A DNA stretch of 64,000 nucleotides from Alphaproteobacteria bacterium (GTDB lineage: Bacteria > Pseudomonadota > Alphaproteobacteria > JANQMY01), in assembly GCA_028289425.1 (NCBI GenBank), contig JANQPL010000014.1, positions 186,170-250,169 on the forward strand. The letters run 5' to 3'. Both the position numbers and the translations under genes were made by a program. Position 1 is the stretch's first letter. Each line of letters starts with the position of its first letter. Positions 28,400 through 37,958 of this stretch are shown in pieces. The notes beneath the pieces are model-generated. The model did no database searches. It had not been told where the DNA came from and saw only the letters and a program-made list of their open reading frames with translations.

Positions 28400-30022
28400 A
28401 TGATGGTGAATGCTTCATTAGACGCGGCCTGCGCCGAAGCGCTCTCGGCCGCCGATGGCTATTTTGCATCCGCGCGGGTCGCGATCGCACCGGAAGCCGC
28501 CCGAGGGCGAGAGGGCCAATATGCCTGCCACGGCCTCGCGTGGATTGCCACCACCGTGGAGGCCATGCGCCAGACCTTCCAGTGGGCAGCCCGCCTTCAG
28601 CAACAAGACCGCCTGGGCGAACTTGAATGCCGCATGGCCCACGCCGTTTTCGGCGAGTATCTGGCACAGCTCTGCGGCGGACTGCCCATGAGCCAGGGAG
28701 AGATACTGCGCCCGCAAGACCTGGGGGCAGCGAAGGCGGCCGGCGTCTTGGCCGGCAATTCATCCGTTCAACGCCTTATGGAAATCGGAAGTTCTACCGA
28801 GAATAGGGCGCGGATCGCTGAGCTCATTGCCGATGGCCAAGAAGCGGCCGACGGACTCGATGAAACACTCTCGCTGGTGCGCGATCAGTTTCAGCGGTTT
28901 GCCCGTGAAAGGGTGACGCCTTTCGCCCATGATTGGCATCTGAAGGACGAGCTCATCCCCGACAGCGTCGTTGGCGAAATGGCACAGTTGGGTGTCTTCG
29001 GACTAACCGTCCCGGAAGAATTCGGCGGTCACGGCATGGGTAAGACCGCCATGTGCGTGGTCTCGGAAGAGCTGAGCCGTGGTTATATCGGCGTCGGTTC
29101 GCTCGGCACACGGTCGGAGATTGCGGCGGAATTGGTTCTCGCCAACGGCACCGACGAACAAAAGAAGACATTGCTGCCTAAACTGGCATCGGGAGAAATC
29201 CTGCCAACAGCCGTCTTCACGGAACCCAACACCGGCTCCGATCTGGCATCGCTTTCCACGCGGGCGATCAAAGAAGACGGAAGCTACAAGATTGTCGGCA
29301 ACAAGACGTGGATTACTCATGCGGCCCGCACGGACCTGATGACCTTGCTGGCGCGGACGGACACGTCGCAACCGGGGCATAAAGGCTTGTCCATGTTCCT
29401 TGCGGAGAAACCGCGCGGCACTACCGACGACCCTTTTCCGGCGACTGGCATGACTGGCGGTGAAATCGGCGTGCTCGGTTATCGCGGCATGAAGGAGTAT
29501 GAGCTGGCGTTTGACGGGTTCGAGGTGCCGGAAAGCGCCTTGCTCGGTGGTGAAGAAGGCCAAGGGTTCAAGCAGCTCATGCAAACCTTCGAAAGTGCAC
29601 GCATCCAAACGGCTGCGCGCGCCATTGGGGTTGCGCAAAACGCTTTGGATCTGGCGCTTGCCTATGCGGAAGAGCGCCAGCAATTCGGCAGGTCGATCTT
29701 TGAGTTTCCGCGGGTCGCGAACAAAATCGTCATGATGGCCGTGGAAATCTTAGCGGCACGGCAGCTCAGCTATTTTGCGGCTCGGGCCAAAGACGAAGGC
29801 CGCCGCTGCGACATGGAAGCCGGCATGGCCAAACTTTTGGCCGCACGGGTGGCGTGGGCCGCCGCCGACAATGCGGTGCAGATTCACGGCGGTAATGGAT
29901 TTGCCTTGGAATATCCCGTGAGCCGAGTGCTGTGTGACGCACGCATCCTCAACATTTTTGAAGGGGCTGCTGAAATCCAGGCGGAAGTGATCGCACGACG
30001 GCTCTTGGAACGCAGCAATTAG
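28400..30022 (+). CDS. Acyl-CoA dehydrogenase with N-terminal extension, probable methylsuccinyl-CoA dehydrogenase
   Basis: 540 residues. Residues about 155-540 are a standard acyl-CoA dehydrogenase: FTEPNTGSDLAS (FAD/substrate loop), WITHAARTD, YAEERQQFGRSIFEFP and the C-terminal QIHGGNGFALEYPVSRVLCDARILNIFEGAAEIQ region split over two helices. The first roughly 150 residues form an extra helical domain (HGLAWIATTVEAMRQ), the feature that sets methylsuccinyl-CoA dehydrogenase (Mcd, ethylmalonyl-CoA pathway) apart from 380-residue family members. If so it oxidises (2S)-methylsuccinyl-CoA to mesaconyl-CoA and reduces EtfAB, encoded at 36-38 kb. I assign Mcd by architecture only; a butyryl- or isovaleryl-type substrate remains possible. 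Confidence 0.7.
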   Translation: MMVNASLDAACAEALSAADGYFASARVAIAPEAARGREGQYACHGLAWIATTVEAMRQTFQWAARLQQQDRLGELECRMAHAVFGEYLAQLCGGLPMSQGEILRPQDLGAAKAAGVLAGNSSVQRLMEIGSSTENRARIAELIADGQEAADGLDETLSLVRDQFQRFARERVTPFAHDWHLKDELIPDSVVGEMAQLGVFGLTVPEEFGGHGMGKTAMCVVSEELSRGYIGVGSLGTRSEIAAELVLANGTDEQKKTLLPKLASGEILPTAVFTEPNTGSDLASLSTRAIKEDGSYKIVGNKTWITHAARTDLMTLLARTDTSQPGHKGLSMFLAEKPRGTTDDPFPATGMTGGEIGVLGYRGMKEYELAFDGFEVPESALLGGEEGQGFKQLMQTFESARIQTAARAIGVAQNALDLALAYAEERQQFGRSIFEFPRVANKIVMMAVEILAARQLSYFAARAKDEGRRCDMEAGMAKLLAARVAWAAADNAVQIHGGNGFALEYPVSRVLCDARILNIFEGAAEIQAEVIARRLLERSN

Positions 30023-30387
30023 ACAATTTCTGGCCTATCAGGACACTCATCAAGATTGCTCAGGTTATTTTCGGTCGAGTTGTCTCTTCTTGTCCAAATG
30101 TGCTTTTCACCATCAATTTCTCTGACATACACTTCGGCGCGGATTCCATTCACTTCTGTGTAGTAGCTGACAAGGCCTTTCTCTATTGCTTCCACAGCAT
30201 CTGGCTCGTCAACCCAAACCCAATCGGGCGGATCGTAGCAAAACCCGACAACTTCCCCGTCCGCATCGGTGATCGACCGGATAACATGGATCTGTTCAAG
30301 AGAATGGGCTGGGCTGATTGGAGCACTTGTCAGCCAAGCAAATAACAGCGCAGCAATTGGCCACGCTCGGACAAAATGCACCAACAT
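30019..30387 (-). CDS. Secreted DUF3892-like protein
   Basis: 122 residues with a signal peptide (LVHFVRAWPIAALLFAWLTSAPISPAHS). The mature part ends in TRRDNSTENNLSNLDECPD, the hallmark C-terminus of DUF3892 domains (NNLLxLPxC). Overlaps the end of the acyl-CoA dehydrogenase by 4 nt, converging. A paralogue with the same ending lies at 31542-31919, on the same strand. Family function unknown. Divergent from the DUF4188 gene with a 130-bp shared upstream region. Confidence 0.65.
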   Translation of the reverse strand: MLVHFVRAWPIAALLFAWLTSAPISPAHSLEQIHVIRSITDADGEVVGFCYDPPDWVWVDEPDAVEAIEKGLVSYYTEVNGIRAEVYVREIDGEKHIWTRRDNSTENNLSNLDECPDRPEIV

Positions 30388-30517: not shown

Positions 30518-31045
30518 ATGGAAACACTTCATCCGCCACCGGGCGTCCCGATCCCGCAACGCGTGACGGCAAGAGTGGGGCGAAAAGAGCTGGCTGTCTT
30601 TTTGATCGGGTTCCGCATCAACAAACTCTGGAAAGTCCATAAATGGCTGCCGGTCGCCCGGGCAATGGGACGTATGCTGAAGGAATTAGAAACTGCGAAG
30701 GAGAGCGGCCTACGCCATGTGGAAGCTTGGCCTGGGCGCACGTCGATACTGGTTCAATATTGGGATTCCTATGAGGCGATACAGGATTACGCCGTCGACA
30801 AGTCGAAGGAACATATCCCCGCCTGGAATGATTTCAATAAGGCCGTCGGATCCAATGGCGATGTGGGCATATGGCATGAAACCTATCGGGTTCATGCCGG
30901 TGACTTCGAATGCGTCTACAACAACATGCCGCCTTTTGGGCTGGCCGCCGCTTATGACATGATCCCCGCGGAAGGCCTGTACGCGCGGGCTGAATCGCGG
31001 ATGGACAAGTCGAAAGAGGATGCCCCGACAATCGCCGCCCATTAA
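30518..31045 (+). CDS. DUF4188 family protein (monooxygenase-like)
   Basis: 175 residues. AVFLIGFRINKLWKVHKWLPVARAMGRML and the later QYWDSYEAIQDYAVDK / HIPAWNDFNK are typical of DUF4188, a dimeric alpha-beta-barrel-like group related to antibiotic-monooxygenase (ABM) folds. TATGGAGACC precedes the ATG by about 9 nt. A 47-nt gap to the NTF2-like gene suggests a two-gene transcript. Biochemical activity unproven in the family. Confidence 0.8.
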   Translation: METLHPPPGVPIPQRVTARVGRKELAVFLIGFRINKLWKVHKWLPVARAMGRMLKELETAKESGLRHVEAWPGRTSILVQYWDSYEAIQDYAVDKSKEHIPAWNDFNKAVGSNGDVGIWHETYRVHAGDFECVYNNMPPFGLAAAYDMIPAEGLYARAESRMDKSKEDAPTIAAH

Positions 31046-31092: not shown

Positions 31093-31521
31093 ATGCCCCG
31101 ACATCGTTATGTGGACATCATCGAAACCTACTACCGGGGCTGCAACACTCAAGATTACGATCTCATGATGTCGACCTTCACGGATGATGTGGTGCATTTC
31201 TTTGTCGATCACGACCCGGTGAAAGGGGCGCACCAACTTGCCAATTACTGGTGCAAAGTGGCCCCGCGCACCAAGGCCAATTGGTCCGTCGATCATGCGC
31301 TGGTTCAAGAACCGGAAGCCGTTATCGAATGGAGCATGGCGTGGACGCCGCCCGCCACCGGCCTAAGTGAGTTATTGCGAGGCGCCGAGTGGTACGTCTT
31401 TGAAGACGACTTGATTTCGGAGATTCGGTCATACCACAACAATTTTCACCTGGCGGATCCGAAGAATCGCGAGCTTTGGGGGTTTGACTATCTGGGCCGC
31501 GGATATCGCAAAGGACTCTAA
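31093..31521 (+). CDS. NTF2/SnoaL-like protein
   Basis: 142 residues of the cone-shaped NTF2 fold: N-terminal helices (YVDIIETYYRGCNTQDYDLMMSTFTDDVVHFF) then a beta sheet (AVIEWSMAWTPP, GAEWYVFEDDLISEIRSYHN), as in SnoaL-like polyketide cyclases and ketosteroid isomerase relatives. Candidate polar residues line the pocket, but the reaction cannot be inferred. Downstream of the DUF4188 gene in the same direction. Confidence 0.8.
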   Translation: MPRHRYVDIIETYYRGCNTQDYDLMMSTFTDDVVHFFVDHDPVKGAHQLANYWCKVAPRTKANWSVDHALVQEPEAVIEWSMAWTPPATGLSELLRGAEWYVFEDDLISEIRSYHNNFHLADPKNRELWGFDYLGRGYRKGL

Positions 31522-31541: not shown

Positions 31542-31919
31542 TCAGATGCAGTCCGGCAGATTGAGCAGATTGTTTTCGGTCGTATCGTCGCCCTTCGTGC
31601 GAAAGTATGGGCCGGTTTCGCCGTCCACGATGATTACTTCCACCTCGCCCCGCTCCGTTCGCACGTAGAAACGCCGATCGCCGTTTTCGATCATGCGGCG
31701 CAGCTCGCGGTTCCCGGCGGTTACTTTTTGGCCGCTTGAAAGACACAACGCACGAATACTCTCCTGCGGATCGCCATCGAAACGCTCGACACCAACGACC
31801 TGATCTTCCTTTGCGGCACCGCCCGCGGCGCCAAACGGCAAGTCGCCCACCTGCCAGTAGTAGAACGCAACCAACACCAGCGCCACGATGATCATTGTAA
31901 TCATGTGATATTGCCGCAT
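31542..31919 (-). CDS. Membrane-anchored DUF3892 protein
   Basis: 125 residues: an N-terminal TM anchor (MITMIIVALVLVAFYYW) and a globular domain ending FRTKGDDTTENNLLNLPDC, an excellent match to the DUF3892 signature. Cytoplasmic or periplasmic orientation cannot be settled. Clearly related to the secreted protein at 30019-30387, though the anchors differ. Converges with the NTF2-like gene. Confidence 0.75.
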   Translation of the reverse strand: MRQYHMITMIIVALVLVAFYYWQVGDLPFGAAGGAAKEDQVVGVERFDGDPQESIRALCLSSGQKVTAGNRELRRMIENGDRRFYVRTERGEVEVIIVDGETGPYFRTKGDDTTENNLLNLPDCI

Positions 31920-32085: not shown

Positions 32086-32289
32086 ATGGATGTGGCTGCG
32101 TTAACTCCTTATTTGATCCCAGTTTCGTTGTTTTTGGTTTTTTGCGTGTTGCTCGTGGGCATTTACAGTCTGTTTGTGGGCGGAGATTTCGGGCGCAGTT
32201 ACTCCAACAAACTAATGCGCTTGCGCGTGGTTGCGCAATTCGTCGCCGTCCTTATCATCATGGGTGTCTATTACTTCACGAGCGGCTGA
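32086..32289 (+). CDS. Twin-transmembrane (HIG1-type) small protein
   Basis: 67 residues with two TM helices (LIPVSLFLVFCVLLVGIYSLF and LRVVAQFVAVLIIMGVYYF) joined by a polar loop (GGDFGRSYSNKLMR) that resembles the HIG1 domain of hypoxia-induced respiratory proteins. Its stop overlaps the next start (TGATG), so it is translationally coupled to the cobalamin adenosyltransferase. This pairing is common in alphaproteobacteria. Role probably in respiratory-chain assembly, but not shown. Confidence 0.8.
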   Translation: MDVAALTPYLIPVSLFLVFCVLLVGIYSLFVGGDFGRSYSNKLMRLRVVAQFVAVLIIMGVYYFTSG

Positions 32290-32858
32290 TGGTTACCCTC
32301 AACAAGATCTACACAAAGACCGGCGACAAAGGGGAAACTGCCCTGGGCACCGGCGAGCGCGTTGCAAAGTTTGCCTTGCGCATTGAAGCTTACGGCACGG
32401 TTGACGAAACCAATGCCGCCATCGGCATTGCGCGGCAGCATACGAATGACCAATTGGACCAAATGCTGGAACGCGTTCAGAACGATTTGTTTGATCTGGG
32501 GGCAGATCTTTGTACGCCGGATACCGGCGAAAAGCTCGACTATGAACCCCTGCGCATTGTGCCGGATCAGGTGAAACGCCTGGAACAAGAAATCGATACG
32601 CTCAACGAGAAACTCGAGCCTCTCAAATCGTTTGTTCTTCCGGCCGGGACGCCGGCCGCGGCAGCGCTTCACTTGGCGCGCACGGTTTCCCGGCGTGCGG
32701 AGCGCCGCATGGTGGAGCTTGCGACCCAGGAGAAAGTAGGCGACGCAGCGCTTCAATACATCAACCGCTTGTCGGACTTTCTGTTCGTGGCAAGCCGTTA
32801 TGTGAACGCACAAGCGAATGGCGACGTGCTTTGGCAACCGGGCGCCAACAGGTCTTGA
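32289..32858 (+). CDS. Cob(I)alamin adenosyltransferase, PduO type
   Basis: 189 residues from ATG 32289, overlapping the previous stop by 1 nt. Transfers adenosyl from ATP to cob(I)alamin or cob(I)yrinic acid diamide to give coenzyme B12. YTKTGDKGETALGTG is the N-terminal ATP motif, VSRRAERRMVEL holds the catalytic Arg/Glu region, and YINRLSDFLFVASR the C-terminal helix typical of the PduO class. Supplies the cofactor for the class II ribonucleotide reductase at 50.4 kb and, if present, ethylmalonyl-CoA or methylmalonyl-CoA mutase. Confidence 0.92.
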   Translation: MVTLNKIYTKTGDKGETALGTGERVAKFALRIEAYGTVDETNAAIGIARQHTNDQLDQMLERVQNDLFDLGADLCTPDTGEKLDYEPLRIVPDQVKRLEQEIDTLNEKLEPLKSFVLPAGTPAAAALHLARTVSRRAERRMVELATQEKVGDAALQYINRLSDFLFVASRYVNAQANGDVLWQPGANRS

Positions 32859-32894
32859 ATTCAGCACAAAGACAATATCGGAGGAATCTCAGCC

Positions 32895-34283
32895 ATGATG
32901 ACGGGGGAACAATATAAGGCGTCTCTCAATGACGGGCGCGCCACCTTCTTTGAGGGGCGGCGCGTGGACGACATTATTGCGGAACCGTTGCTGGGCCAAA
33001 CCGCCGCTGTCGTCGCAGACACCTATGATCGTTTCTACAAGCCCGAGCCCGACGCCATCAGCGACTATATGAAGGTTCCCGGATCTGCGACCGAACTGTG
33101 GGACCAGGTGGCAGCCCATCATGATGTGGATCTGCTAACCCACGTTACCTACGCGTCGATCATGACACTGCTCACCGCCGCGGACCGCATTTCGGAAAAG
33201 CGGCCGCAGGCGGTCGGCGCGATCCATAAATATGTAGACTTTGTGCAAAAGAACGATCTGCGCGTAACCCAATGCATCACCGACGCAAAGGGCGACCGCA
33301 GCAAACACCCGGCCGACCAGCAAGACCCGGACGCCTATGTCCGCGTGGTCGACCGCAAGGATGATGGCGTCGTCATCCGCGGCGCCAAGCTGCACATCTC
33401 CGGCGCGTCCTTGGGTCACGAGCTCATGACCATCCCCACCAAAGCCATGCGCCCGGGTGAGGAAGACTATTCGATTGCCTGCATGGTGCCCGTGAATGCG
33501 CCGGGCGTGAAGATTGTGAACACCACCTATGCGCCGCGTCATGAAGACACGCGCGACTTTCCGGTCTCGGGACAATACCACATGCCGGAGGGGTTCGTGA
33601 TTTTCGATGATGTGTTCGTCTCCAATGACCGGGTGTTTCTGGATGGCGAGACAGAATACGCGGCCGTGTTCGCCCATTCCCTCGGGCTTTGGGAACGCCT
33701 GGGCGGGCTCGCTTCCATGGCGGACGGCGCTGATGAAATGGTGGGCTTTGCTCAGTTGATTGCCGAAGCCAACGGTCTGGAATGCGTGGGCCATGTGAAA
33801 GAAAAGATTTCCGAAATGATCATCCACGCAACGCTCGTTCGCGCGTCACTGGAAGCGGCCATTTCCAATTGCCAGGTAACCAGTGACGGGGCCGCCTTCC
33901 CAGATGAACTGTACACCAATGCGGGCAAATATCATGGCGCCGCCAATTACAATGCGATGGTCCGCCATCTGCACGACATCGCCGGCGGCTCTGTTTTAAC
34001 CGCGCCGGGCATTGCGGACCTGGAGAACGAAGAAACGGGCCACCTTATCCGGAAGTATATGGGCACGAAGCAATCCGTCGACGGAGCATATCGGACCCGT
34101 CTGTTCCACGCGATCCGCGACGTGACTGCCGATTCCTTCGGCGGCTGGAAGGCCGTCACCAATGTGCAGGCCGGCGGGGGCCTCTACGCACAACGCATTG
34201 TCACGCGCAAACACTACGACATGGAAAAGGCAAAGTCGCTCGCCCTAAAGACCGCGCGGATCGAGCCGTCCGAAGCGGTCTAG
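32895..34283 (+). CDS. HpaB/AbfD-family protein lacking the Fe-S ligands
   Basis: 462 residues with GGAGG upstream. Strong family match to 4-hydroxybutyryl-CoA dehydratase (AbfD) and 4-hydroxyphenylacetate 3-monooxygenase: TDAKGDRSKHPADQQDPD, RGAKLHISGASLGHE and the C-terminal DIAGGSVLTAPGIADL match AbfD segments. But the AbfD [4Fe-4S] ligands are absent: the region equivalent to Cys99/Cys103 reads LTHVTYASIMTL, and that of His292/Cys299 reads GLWERLGGLASM. The only Cys nearby is Cys127 in VTQCITD. It therefore cannot be an AbfD-type radical dehydratase as known; a flavin-dependent oxygenase or a new acyl-CoA reaction is likelier. Confidence 0.85.
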   Translation: MMTGEQYKASLNDGRATFFEGRRVDDIIAEPLLGQTAAVVADTYDRFYKPEPDAISDYMKVPGSATELWDQVAAHHDVDLLTHVTYASIMTLLTAADRISEKRPQAVGAIHKYVDFVQKNDLRVTQCITDAKGDRSKHPADQQDPDAYVRVVDRKDDGVVIRGAKLHISGASLGHELMTIPTKAMRPGEEDYSIACMVPVNAPGVKIVNTTYAPRHEDTRDFPVSGQYHMPEGFVIFDDVFVSNDRVFLDGETEYAAVFAHSLGLWERLGGLASMADGADEMVGFAQLIAEANGLECVGHVKEKISEMIIHATLVRASLEAAISNCQVTSDGAAFPDELYTNAGKYHGAANYNAMVRHLHDIAGGSVLTAPGIADLENEETGHLIRKYMGTKQSVDGAYRTRLFHAIRDVTADSFGGWKAVTNVQAGGGLYAQRIVTRKHYDMEKAKSLALKTARIEPSEAV

Positions 34284-34295
34284 AGCAAACCTGAT

Positions 34296-34715
34296 CTAGT
34301 ACCTTCTGAAGCCTTTGCCGTGGAAGCCACGGTGAAACCCGTTGCCGTGGAACGAACGGCCATGAAATCCGTGGAATCTGCTTCCGTGAAAACGACGGCC
34401 ATGGAAGCGTTTGCCATGGAAGGCTCTGCCGTGAAATCCGCCCCGGTAAAAGCGCTTGCCGTGAAAGCTTCGTCCATGAAAGCCTCTGCCATAGAAGCGG
34501 CTCCCATGGTGAAAACCGCGGCTACGGAAGCCGCCATGGTACCCCCTTCCATAATAGCCGCGCTTGAAAGTGACGGCTTCGACGGGCGCCGAATACCCCA
34601 GTGCCCGATCGTGTCCTGTTACTTTCAGGGGCGATGCGTGCGCCCCCGTCGTGAGAGCGACCAATGTCAGCGCTGCCGCGCCCACCAAGATTAGTTTTCC
34701 GACAGTTCCAAGCAT
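34296..34715 (-). CDS. Secreted His/Gly/Arg/Phe-rich repeat protein
   Basis: 139 residues from ATG 34715, with AAGGAG 6 nt upstream. Signal peptide (GKLILVGAAALTLVALTTGAHA) and, from about residue 45, a low-complexity tail built of short units such as RGFHG, KRFHG and RSFHG repeated about 15 times to the C-terminal RRY. The underlying DNA is a matching tandem repeat. Such His-rich secreted proteins can bind metals (Ni, Cu, Zn), but no function is established. It converges with the HpaB/AbfD-like gene, 12 nt apart. Confidence 0.65.
   Translation of the reverse strand: MLGTVGKLILVGAAALTLVALTTGAHASPLKVTGHDRALGYSAPVEAVTFKRGYYGRGYHGGFRSRGFHHGSRFYGRGFHGRSFHGKRFYRGGFHGRAFHGKRFHGRRFHGSRFHGFHGRSFHGNGFHRGFHGKGFRRY
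34299..34560 (-). repeat. Tandem 15-bp coding repeat
   Basis: Degenerate 15-bp units encoding (K/R)-x-FHG pentapeptides repeat through most of the His/Gly-rich gene. Units differ mainly at the second residue (Gly, Ser, Ala, Arg), which suggests slippage and divergence within the array. Confidence 0.6.
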
Positions 34716-34910
34716 GACGAACTCCTTTCTGGGTCCGCGGACGTCGAGGGCCCGCAGGATCTTCCCGCCCCAGCTGATCAATTAATTGGGGCCAAACGGC
34801 GGGCGCGCCAGGCACATTCGGTCAATAAGCCGTGATTTCCGTTCATCGAAAAGCCCCAGATTTCCCGTGCTTTTGTGAACGGTTGGGGGTCATTGCGGCG
34901 AGCGAAAACA

Positions 34911-36267: not shown

Positions 36268-37017
36268 ATGAAGGTCCTCGTGCCCGTAAAACGGGTCGTC
36301 GATTATAACGTGAAAATTCGCGTGAAGCCTGATCAAACGGGCGTCGATCTGGCAAACGTGAAAATGTCGATGAACCCTTTCGACGAGATTTCGGTTGAAG
36401 AAGCCGTCCGTCTGAAAGAAGCCGGCACCGCGACGGAAGTGATCGCCGTCTCCGTTGGACCTCAGCAGGCACAAGAAACCATCCGTACCGCGCTGGCCAT
36501 GGGCGCCGACCGGGGCATTTTGGTCAAGACCGACGAGACCGTTGAACCCCTGGCAGTCGCGAAAATCCTCAAAGCGATCTGCGATGCCGAAAGCCCGGAT
36601 CTGGTGATCCTGGGCAAGCAGGCGATCGATGACGACTGCAATCAGACCGGTCAGATGCTTGCCGCCTTGCTCGGCTGGCCGCAGGGAACGTTTGCCTCCG
36701 AACTGAAATTTGCCGACGGCAAGCTGGACGTTACCCGCGAAATCGACGGCGGTTTGCAAACCGTCAAGATCAACATGCCGGCTGTTGTGACGGTCGATCT
36801 GCGGCTCAATGAACCGCGCTATGCGTCGCTTCCCAACATCATGAAGGCGAAGAAAAAGCCGATCGATGAAAAATCGCCCGAAGAATACAGCGTCGACATC
36901 TCACCGCGCCTTGAAGTTTTGAAAGTGACCGACCCGCCCCAGCGTGAAGCGGGCGTCAAGGTGGAAACCGTGGCGGAATTGGTCGAAAAACTCAAAAGCG
37001 AAGCAGGTGTCATCTAA
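36268..37017 (+). CDS. etfB: Electron transfer flavoprotein, beta subunit
   Basis: 249 residues, the standard size. EtfB binds AMP structurally and forms the heterodimer with EtfA that collects electrons from acyl-CoA dehydrogenases for ETF:quinone oxidoreductase. [14 protein letters not shown] is the usual N-terminus; [25 protein letters not shown] is the family signature. GGTGGAG precedes the start. Overlaps the etfA start by 1 nt (TAATG), giving a coupled operon. Confidence 0.95.
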
Positions 37018-37958
37018 TGTCTACATTGGTAATTGCAGAACACGATAATGCGTCGCTGAGAGACGCAACCCACAAGACGATTACTGCCGCCGCCGCCCTG
37101 GGCGCTCCTGTCACCGTGCTTGTTGCCGGGTCCGGCTGCGCATCTGTCGGCGAAGAAGCATCGAAGCTTGCCGGCGTTGAAAAGGTTTTGGTGGCGGATG
37201 ATCCGGCCCTTGAGAAACAGCTGGCCGAACCGATGGCCGCTCTTGTAATTTCTTTATCTGGCGATTATTCGGCGATCGTTGCGCCGGCAACCACGAACGG
37301 CAAGAACTACAGCCCCCGGATCGCAGCAATGCTCGACTCCGCGCAGATTTCCGAGATTGTTTCGGTGGAAAGCCCAGATACGTTTATTCGGCCCATTTAT
37401 GCCGGTAATGCCATGCAAACCGTCAAGTCGAGCGACGCCAAGAAAGTCATCACGGTACGGACGACAGCATTTAAGGCTGCGGAAGAAGGCGGCTCGGCAC
37501 CGGTGGAATCCGTTTCGCTGACGGACAATCCGGGCATCTCTGAATATGTGGGCGAAGAATTGTCCAAATCCGACCGTCCCGAACTGACGTCTGCGAAGAT
37601 CATCATTTCAGGCGGACGCGGCATGCAAAGCGGCGAGAACTTTGCCATGCTGGAAAAAGTCGCCGACAAACTGAACGCCGCTGTGGGCGCCTCGCGTGCT
37701 GCCGTGGACGCAGGCTTTGTTCCCAACGATTATCAGGTCGGTCAGACCGGCAAAGTGGTCGCGCCGGAACTCTACATTGCCGTCGGCATCTCGGGCGCCA
37801 TTCAGCACTTGGCGGGTATGAAGGATTCAAAAGTGATCGTGGCCATCAACAAAGATGAAGAGGCTCCGATCTTCCAGGTCGCCGACTACGGTCTGGTCGC
37901 CGACTTGTTCAAGGCTGTCCCGGAATTGGAAGAGGAACTCGGGAAAGCCGGTTTGTAG
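37017..37958 (+). CDS. etfA: Electron transfer flavoprotein, alpha subunit
   Basis: 313 residues, normal length. Carries the redox FAD: the C-terminal domain shows [39 protein letters not shown] and [12 protein letters not shown], all characteristic. Likely electron acceptor for the acyl-CoA dehydrogenases at the start of the window and at 28.4 kb. The next gene, a 3-hydroxyacyl-CoA dehydrogenase, follows after 62 nt, so the unit is etfB-etfA-hbd. Confidence 0.95.

Follow-up and report, generated by a model that had tools for sequence, protein, structure and literature searches.

A predicted cluster-free flavoprotein on the AbfD side of the HpaB superfamily with glutamate in place of the iron-sulfur ligand His292

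The locus and its surroundings

The window, i.e., the whole stretch of 64,000 nucleotides analysed here, contains an intact open reading frame on the plus strand, which starts with ATG at 32895 and whose stop codon ends at 34283. The following features describe this gene and its surroundings.

28400-30022, plus strand: acyl-CoA dehydrogenase, (2S)-methylsuccinyl-CoA dehydrogenase-like, given for context (691 bits to 6es9)
32289-32858, plus strand: PduO-type cobalamin adenosyltransferase (TIGR00636, Pfam PF01923)
32880-32884, plus strand: GGAGG, Shine-Dalgarno-like, 10 nt 5' of the ATG (sequence)
32895-34283, plus strand: predicted cluster-free AbfD-side flavoprotein (HpaB superfamily), 'WER' clade, 462 aa (Pfam, NCBIfam, trees, AF2 model, Foldseek)
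36268-37958, plus strand: etfB-etfA (gene context comparison)

The adenosyltransferase gene ends 36 nt 5' of the WER gene. Both genes are probably co-transcribed, and the pair is also found in the sister species (L001). Within the genus, the WER gene follows the adenosyltransferase gene and precedes etfBA by 2 kb. Since etfB is the next gene downstream of the adenosyltransferase gene, within 1.5 kb, in 13 of the 18 other alphaproteobacterial genomes compared, the WER gene, together with a His/Gly-rich ORF and a cyclase-like gene, appears to be inserted into a conserved ETF locus. A His/Gly/Arg/Phe-rich ORF at 34296-34781 (minus strand) contains FHGRxFHG-type repeats and has no Pfam match.

An acyl-CoA neighbourhood had been proposed for this gene. 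This applies to the operons of several relatives, but in the window the acyl-CoA genes (Mcd-like dehydrogenase, etfBA, and hbd) are located 2-4 kb from the WER gene and a common operon is not obvious. The closeness of the acyl-CoA dehydrogenase at 28400-30022 to 6es9 suggests an ethylmalonyl-CoA pathway, and 59 acyl-CoA dehydrogenase matches were detected in this genome. Two DUF3892-type small proteins are encoded on the minus strand (30019-30387 and 31542-31919), and between them, on the opposite strand, are genes for an af470-like monooxygenase (30518-31045) and a SnoaL_2 protein (31093-31521).

Family membership and active-site residues

The 462-aa protein, the only HpaB-family member encoded in the genome, matches Pfam HpaB_N (204.9 bits) and HpaB (158.9 bits) over its full length, and no match to the Pfam acyl-CoA dehydrogenase domains was obtained. 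Its NCBIfam HpaB-1 and HpaB-2 scores (166 and 91 bits) are far below the respective cut-offs of 480 and 885. Among solved structures, the best matches were vinylacetyl-CoA Delta-isomerase/4HBD 6vjr and AbfD 1u8v, followed by HpaB-type monooxygenases. With a family profile, the match to AbfD/VCDI extends from end to end (6vjr, E 1.2e-72; 1u8v, E 1.3e-67), in agreement with the long AbfD match reported in the preliminary description. Foldseek searches with an AF2 model (mean pLDDT 82, pTM 0.80) likewise ranked 6vjr and 1u8v first by E-value (about 1e-29), with HpaB, TftD, and HadA next. Together with the ligand positions described below, this supports the proposed AbfD fold without a cluster. 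The residues relevant to this comparison, all encoded on the plus strand, are listed here.

33129-33149, plus strand: residues 79-85, DLLTHVT, shortened loop replacing AbfD C99-FQR-C103 and HpaB R100-SPD-Y104 (alignments)
33279-33302, plus strand: residues 129-136, TDAKGDRS, AbfD-side signature (alignments)
33381-33401, plus strand: residues 163-169, GAKLHIS, AbfD-side GAKxHxT/S motif, Ser169 corresponding to AbfD Thr190 (alignments)
33588-33590, plus strand: Glu232, corresponding to AbfD Glu257 (alignments)
33687-33698, plus strand: residues 265-268, LWER, Glu267 at the AbfD His292 position and, with AbfD-side and superfamily profiles, mapping to the helix-G catalytic Glu of acyl-CoA dehydrogenases (ACADs) (alignments, hhalign)
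33714-33716, plus strand: Ser274 at the AbfD Cys299 position, variable within the WER clade (alignment)
34158-34160, plus strand: Thr422 at the AbfD Glu455 position (alignment)
34173-34181, plus strand: residues 427-429, GGG, invariant, tentatively in the ACAD J-K loop region, without Glu (weak mapping, some profile pairs)

AbfD is a textbook radical dehydratase, in which His292 is a cluster ligand as well as the proposed base, and in which Tyr296 and Glu455 have been proposed to act in radical generation. For residue comparisons, the sequences of 1u8v, 6vjr, 9lft, and 2yyg were taken from printed alignments and aligned with relatives of the 462-aa protein, and the reference numbering was checked (C99, C103, H292, C299, Y296, E257, and E455; R100, Y104, and H142). 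Neither Cys nor His is present in the 462-aa protein at the four columns of the AbfD [4Fe-4S] ligands (C99, C103, H292, and C299). C-C-H-C was read at these columns in all 28 AbfD-type control proteins (4 in the first alignment and 24 from an actinobacterial sample, handled by the same procedure) and in the two PDB AbfDs, but in none of 32 WER-clade members. Because the controls invariably read C-C-H-C, an alignment artefact is ruled out as the cause of the missing ligands.

Thus, the absence of all four ligands, as claimed in the preliminary description, was confirmed. The replacements were described there as Leu/Thr/Ser/Gly-type residues, but His292 is replaced by Glu267, and the Cys99-x3-Cys103 region is not point-substituted but lies in a loop from which about 5-6 residues are missing relative to AbfD and HpaB alike. 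Cys299 corresponds to Ser274, and across the WER clade this column varies widely (S/A/G/V/E/H/P/T/L/F). Glu occupies the His292 column in 32 of 32 members, all of which also share the flanking Trp266 and Arg268, and no invariant stretch among the 30 members compared is longer than LWER.

The protein shares with AbfD (1u8v and 6vjr) the fold, the end-to-end profile match, the TDxKGDR and GAKxHxT/S motifs, and the side of the tree; the TDAKGDRS signature reads TDPKGDRG in AbfD and TNPQVNRA in HpaB. The Glu257/Thr190 pair near the flavin is kept as Glu232/Ser169, with E/D and S/T at these positions in nearly the whole clade. By contrast, AbfD possesses the four ligands, Tyr296, Glu455, and the longer loop, and WER-clade hosts look aerobic. 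Not only all four ligands but also both proposed radical-relay residues, Tyr296 (Gly271 here) and Glu455 (Thr422), are absent, which rules out a true AbfD.

The conserved Glu/Ser pair, the AbfD-side placement, and a Glu in the proposed base position would also suit a cluster-free Delta-isomerase or dehydratase of the vinylacetyl-CoA type, which might perform an AbfD-like reaction by acid-base chemistry, assisted structurally or electrostatically by the flavin. We consider this rather improbable, given the Gly and Thr in place of Tyr296 and Glu455. Moreover, AbfD H292E and Cys variants reportedly lack dehydratase activity, and it is therefore unlikely that 4-hydroxybutyryl-CoA is dehydrated in the way proposed for AbfD.

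HpaB-type group D monooxygenases (4-HPA 3-hydroxylase, TftD, TcpA, HadA, and SgcC) have the fold and the HpaB_N and HpaB domains in common with the 462-aa protein and are likewise devoid of an iron-sulfur cluster. In HpaB, Arg100, Tyr104, and His142 are crucial for substrate binding (PMC10816480). Unlike in these monooxygenases, this triad is missing from the 462-aa protein, where the equivalents are Leu80, Val84, and Gln (Glu in relatives). Judged by the residues that define these two families, the protein is neither AbfD nor HpaB. A lack of the known catalytic residues of both enzymes might be expected of a degenerate or non-catalytic AbfD paralogue, but strong conservation across several phyla, an invariant motif of active-site type, an intact ORF whose counterpart in the sister species (L001) is 95% identical, and the operon placement make a pseudoenzyme very improbable.

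Phylogenetic placement and distribution of the WER clade

A scan of approximately 85,000 genomes retrieved 24 relatives with 48-95% identity, and the WER clade was extended with members from genome searches. The hosts of these relatives comprise alpha- and gammaproteobacterial MAGs, Bradyrhizobium, Binatota, Myxococcota-like MAGs (MAG titles being tentative), Mycobacterium, Ilumatobacter, and Acidimicrobiia. WER-clade members were present in 2 of 398 genomes in the sample of the window's phylum and in 3 of 296 in that of the phylum of Mycobacterium triplex, the centre genome included in each case, and thus their distribution is patchy. An Ilumatobacteraceae MAG (L024) encodes at least five members, two of them in tandem (L024:1404-4196), the first without the TDAKGDRS loop. 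Our literature searches for work on the WER clade found no paper.

Two unrooted trees, a quick one with 72 sequences and a careful one with 54, agreed in topology. In the careful tree, the WER clade formed a single group (support 100/99) and clustered with AbfD, a CAQRY group, and an 'H-only' group (100/99), separate from HpaB. Grouping of the WER clade with HpaB was rejected by the AU test (p=0.009). The preliminary description had weighed its proposal against membership in the HpaB phenol hydroxylase clade; by the trees and the AU test the 462-aa protein lies outside this clade, and together with the missing triad these results rule out such a placement.

The 'H-only' AbfD-like proteins (Rhodococcus opacus PD630 AHK36186.1, L026, L028, L075, L076, and L125-L127) also belong to the AbfD side and lack the cluster Cys residues, but they retain His292 and form a clade distinct from WER. 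When the four ligand columns were masked for tree building, the C-C-H-C state required one change on the resulting tree. If the root is on the HpaB side, one gain in the AbfD stem is therefore a more economical history than separate losses among the sister groups. Parsimony hence does not support the view that the protein 'has lost' its ligands, and 'lacks' is the better wording: the protein comes from a sister clade without the cluster and is not an AbfD deprived of it.

The putative helix-G glutamate and possible functions

Most acyl-CoA dehydrogenases carry their catalytic Glu in the J-K loop, but in isovaleryl-CoA and long-chain acyl-CoA dehydrogenases (IVD and LCAD) it is found on helix G, and its function as a base in these two enzymes is experimentally supported (PMC5798300, PMC10925408, PMC12369846). 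The ACADs of the window's genome have either the helix-G or the J-K Glu, and many of the helix-G type read ...ER.... In hhalign comparisons, an AbfD profile without the WER clade placed His292-Arg293 at offset 0 to the ACAD helix-G Glu/Gly-Arg with all options, and AbfD-side and superfamily profiles did so for Glu267-Arg268. A WER-clade-only profile, however, put Glu267 13 residues off, so that the column match depends on relatives being included in the profile. With the broader profiles, Glu-Arg of the 462-aa protein falls on the helix-G column of IVD/LCAD, and the HR of AbfD and the ER of the WER clade share the same helix position.

The AF2 model contains a long strand (232-243) and a helix (253-292), in which residue 267 is 15 residues from the start. 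LCAD has the same order of elements, with a strand at 258-265 and a helix at 279-317, where Glu291 is 13 residues into helix G. Homology to IVD/LCAD is only distant (Foldseek against ACADs, E about 1e-9, TM about 0.45), and mapping of the J-K region was unstable across profile pairs, with no Glu at the tentative column (GGG, 427-429). Altogether, alignments and model provide good, if not final, evidence that Glu267 may occupy a catalytic-base site.

Neighbour genes in the high-GC loci of relatives were called by codon-usage scoring. A CoA ligase gene begins 6 nt 3' of the WER gene in four alphaproteobacterial loci (L002, L003, L005, and L007), and one is also nearby in Ilumatobacter and Bradyrhizobium. 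A two-domain or single ACAD gene precedes the WER gene by 16-22 nt in Mycobacterium and Ilumatobacter (L018-L020, L022, and L023), an enoyl-CoA hydratase gene by 28 nt in L017, and CoA transferases are encoded in L006, L010, and L015. No CoA ligase or ACAD gene adjoins the WER gene in several gammaproteobacterial, Binatota, and Acidimicrobiia loci. We sought one conserved operon that would reveal the substrate and found none, the neighbours varying among lineages.

We favour a flavin-only enzyme acting on a substrate of the acyl-CoA type, with Glu267 as the alpha-proton base, because the ligands are absent, the protein is placed on the AbfD side, Glu267 is invariant and matches the helix-G column, and CoA ligases or ACADs are operon partners in several relatives. 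We assign this reading a probability of about 0.45. The protein would be an FAD enzyme without [4Fe-4S] from a separate AbfD-side clade, and its substrate would most likely be an acyl-CoA or a similarly activated, probably bulky, carboxylate. Glu267, on the equivalent of ACAD helix G where AbfD has His292, would abstract the alpha proton and the flavin would accept the beta hydride, resulting in alpha,beta-dehydrogenation with electrons passed to ETF. Alternatively, Glu267 might help to shift a double bond with no overall change in redox state. Flavin retention, the CoA substrate, the base role, and the actual reaction are what we infer. The non-uniform neighbourhoods, the 13-residue shift with the clade-only profile, the unmatched ACAD HMMs, and the presence of four HpaC-type reductases count against an acyl-CoA enzyme.

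The latter reductases, encoded elsewhere in the window's genome, are pertinent to the main rival, a two-component flavin monooxygenase of the group D type, which would be supplied with reduced flavin by a reductase encoded elsewhere and use a C4a-hydroperoxyflavin to hydroxylate a phenol or another substrate, possibly CoA- or carrier-bound. To our knowledge, all characterised cluster-free members of the superfamily are such enzymes. By TM-score, the model is at least as close to HpaB/HadA (up to 0.85-0.86) as to AbfD (0.80-0.82). Luciferase-like oxidoreductase genes occur 3' of the WER gene in relatives, and luciferase-like monooxygenases form the most frequent family among the neighbours (7 of 118 genes, with CoA ligase and ACAD at only 5 each). 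A hydroquinone dioxygenase subunit encoded nearby in L010 would suit a phenol hydroxylase, and a Rieske oxygenase in L006 and the seemingly aerobic hosts also fit. Nevertheless, we regard a monooxygenase as somewhat unlikely: the substrate-binding triad is replaced, the protein falls outside the HpaB clade, no HpaC/RutF-type flavin reductase was detected among 313 genes neighbouring WER genes (phmmer, one RutF-type query), and the invariant LWER motif would be left unexplained.

With respect to the favoured acyl-CoA enzyme, it is tempting to speculate, albeit tentatively, that the WER clade represents a third class of the AbfD/HpaB superfamily, consisting of cluster-free acyl-CoA dehydrogenases or isomerases with an ACAD-type helix-G Glu. 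If so, the helix-G base site would be the older feature, and AbfD would later have made the His292 position an Fe-S ligand. We know of no clear evolutionary source for the combination of cluster and flavin chemistry in AbfD, and a cluster-free sister clade with Glu instead of His292, at the probable equivalent of the IVD/LCAD base position, provides a model for the origin of the cluster site that can be tested. For the WER-clade flavoenzymes of Mycobacterium, Bradyrhizobium, Binatota, and others, family models indicate only the HpaB type (4-hydroxyphenylacetate 3-hydroxylase), but these proteins are probably neither HpaB nor AbfD.

Two further groups differ from AbfD in their active-site residues. 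A sister clade of AbfD (CAQRY...HHRxxC; L035-L041) has kept Cys99 and His292, whereas Cys103 and Cys299 are replaced by Tyr and Ala, respectively. A second C-C-H-C group (CIARC...YHRHSYTGCK; L128-L133, L135-L137, L141, and L142) has kept all four ligands and Tyr296, with Ala for Glu455, and may act on a different substrate.
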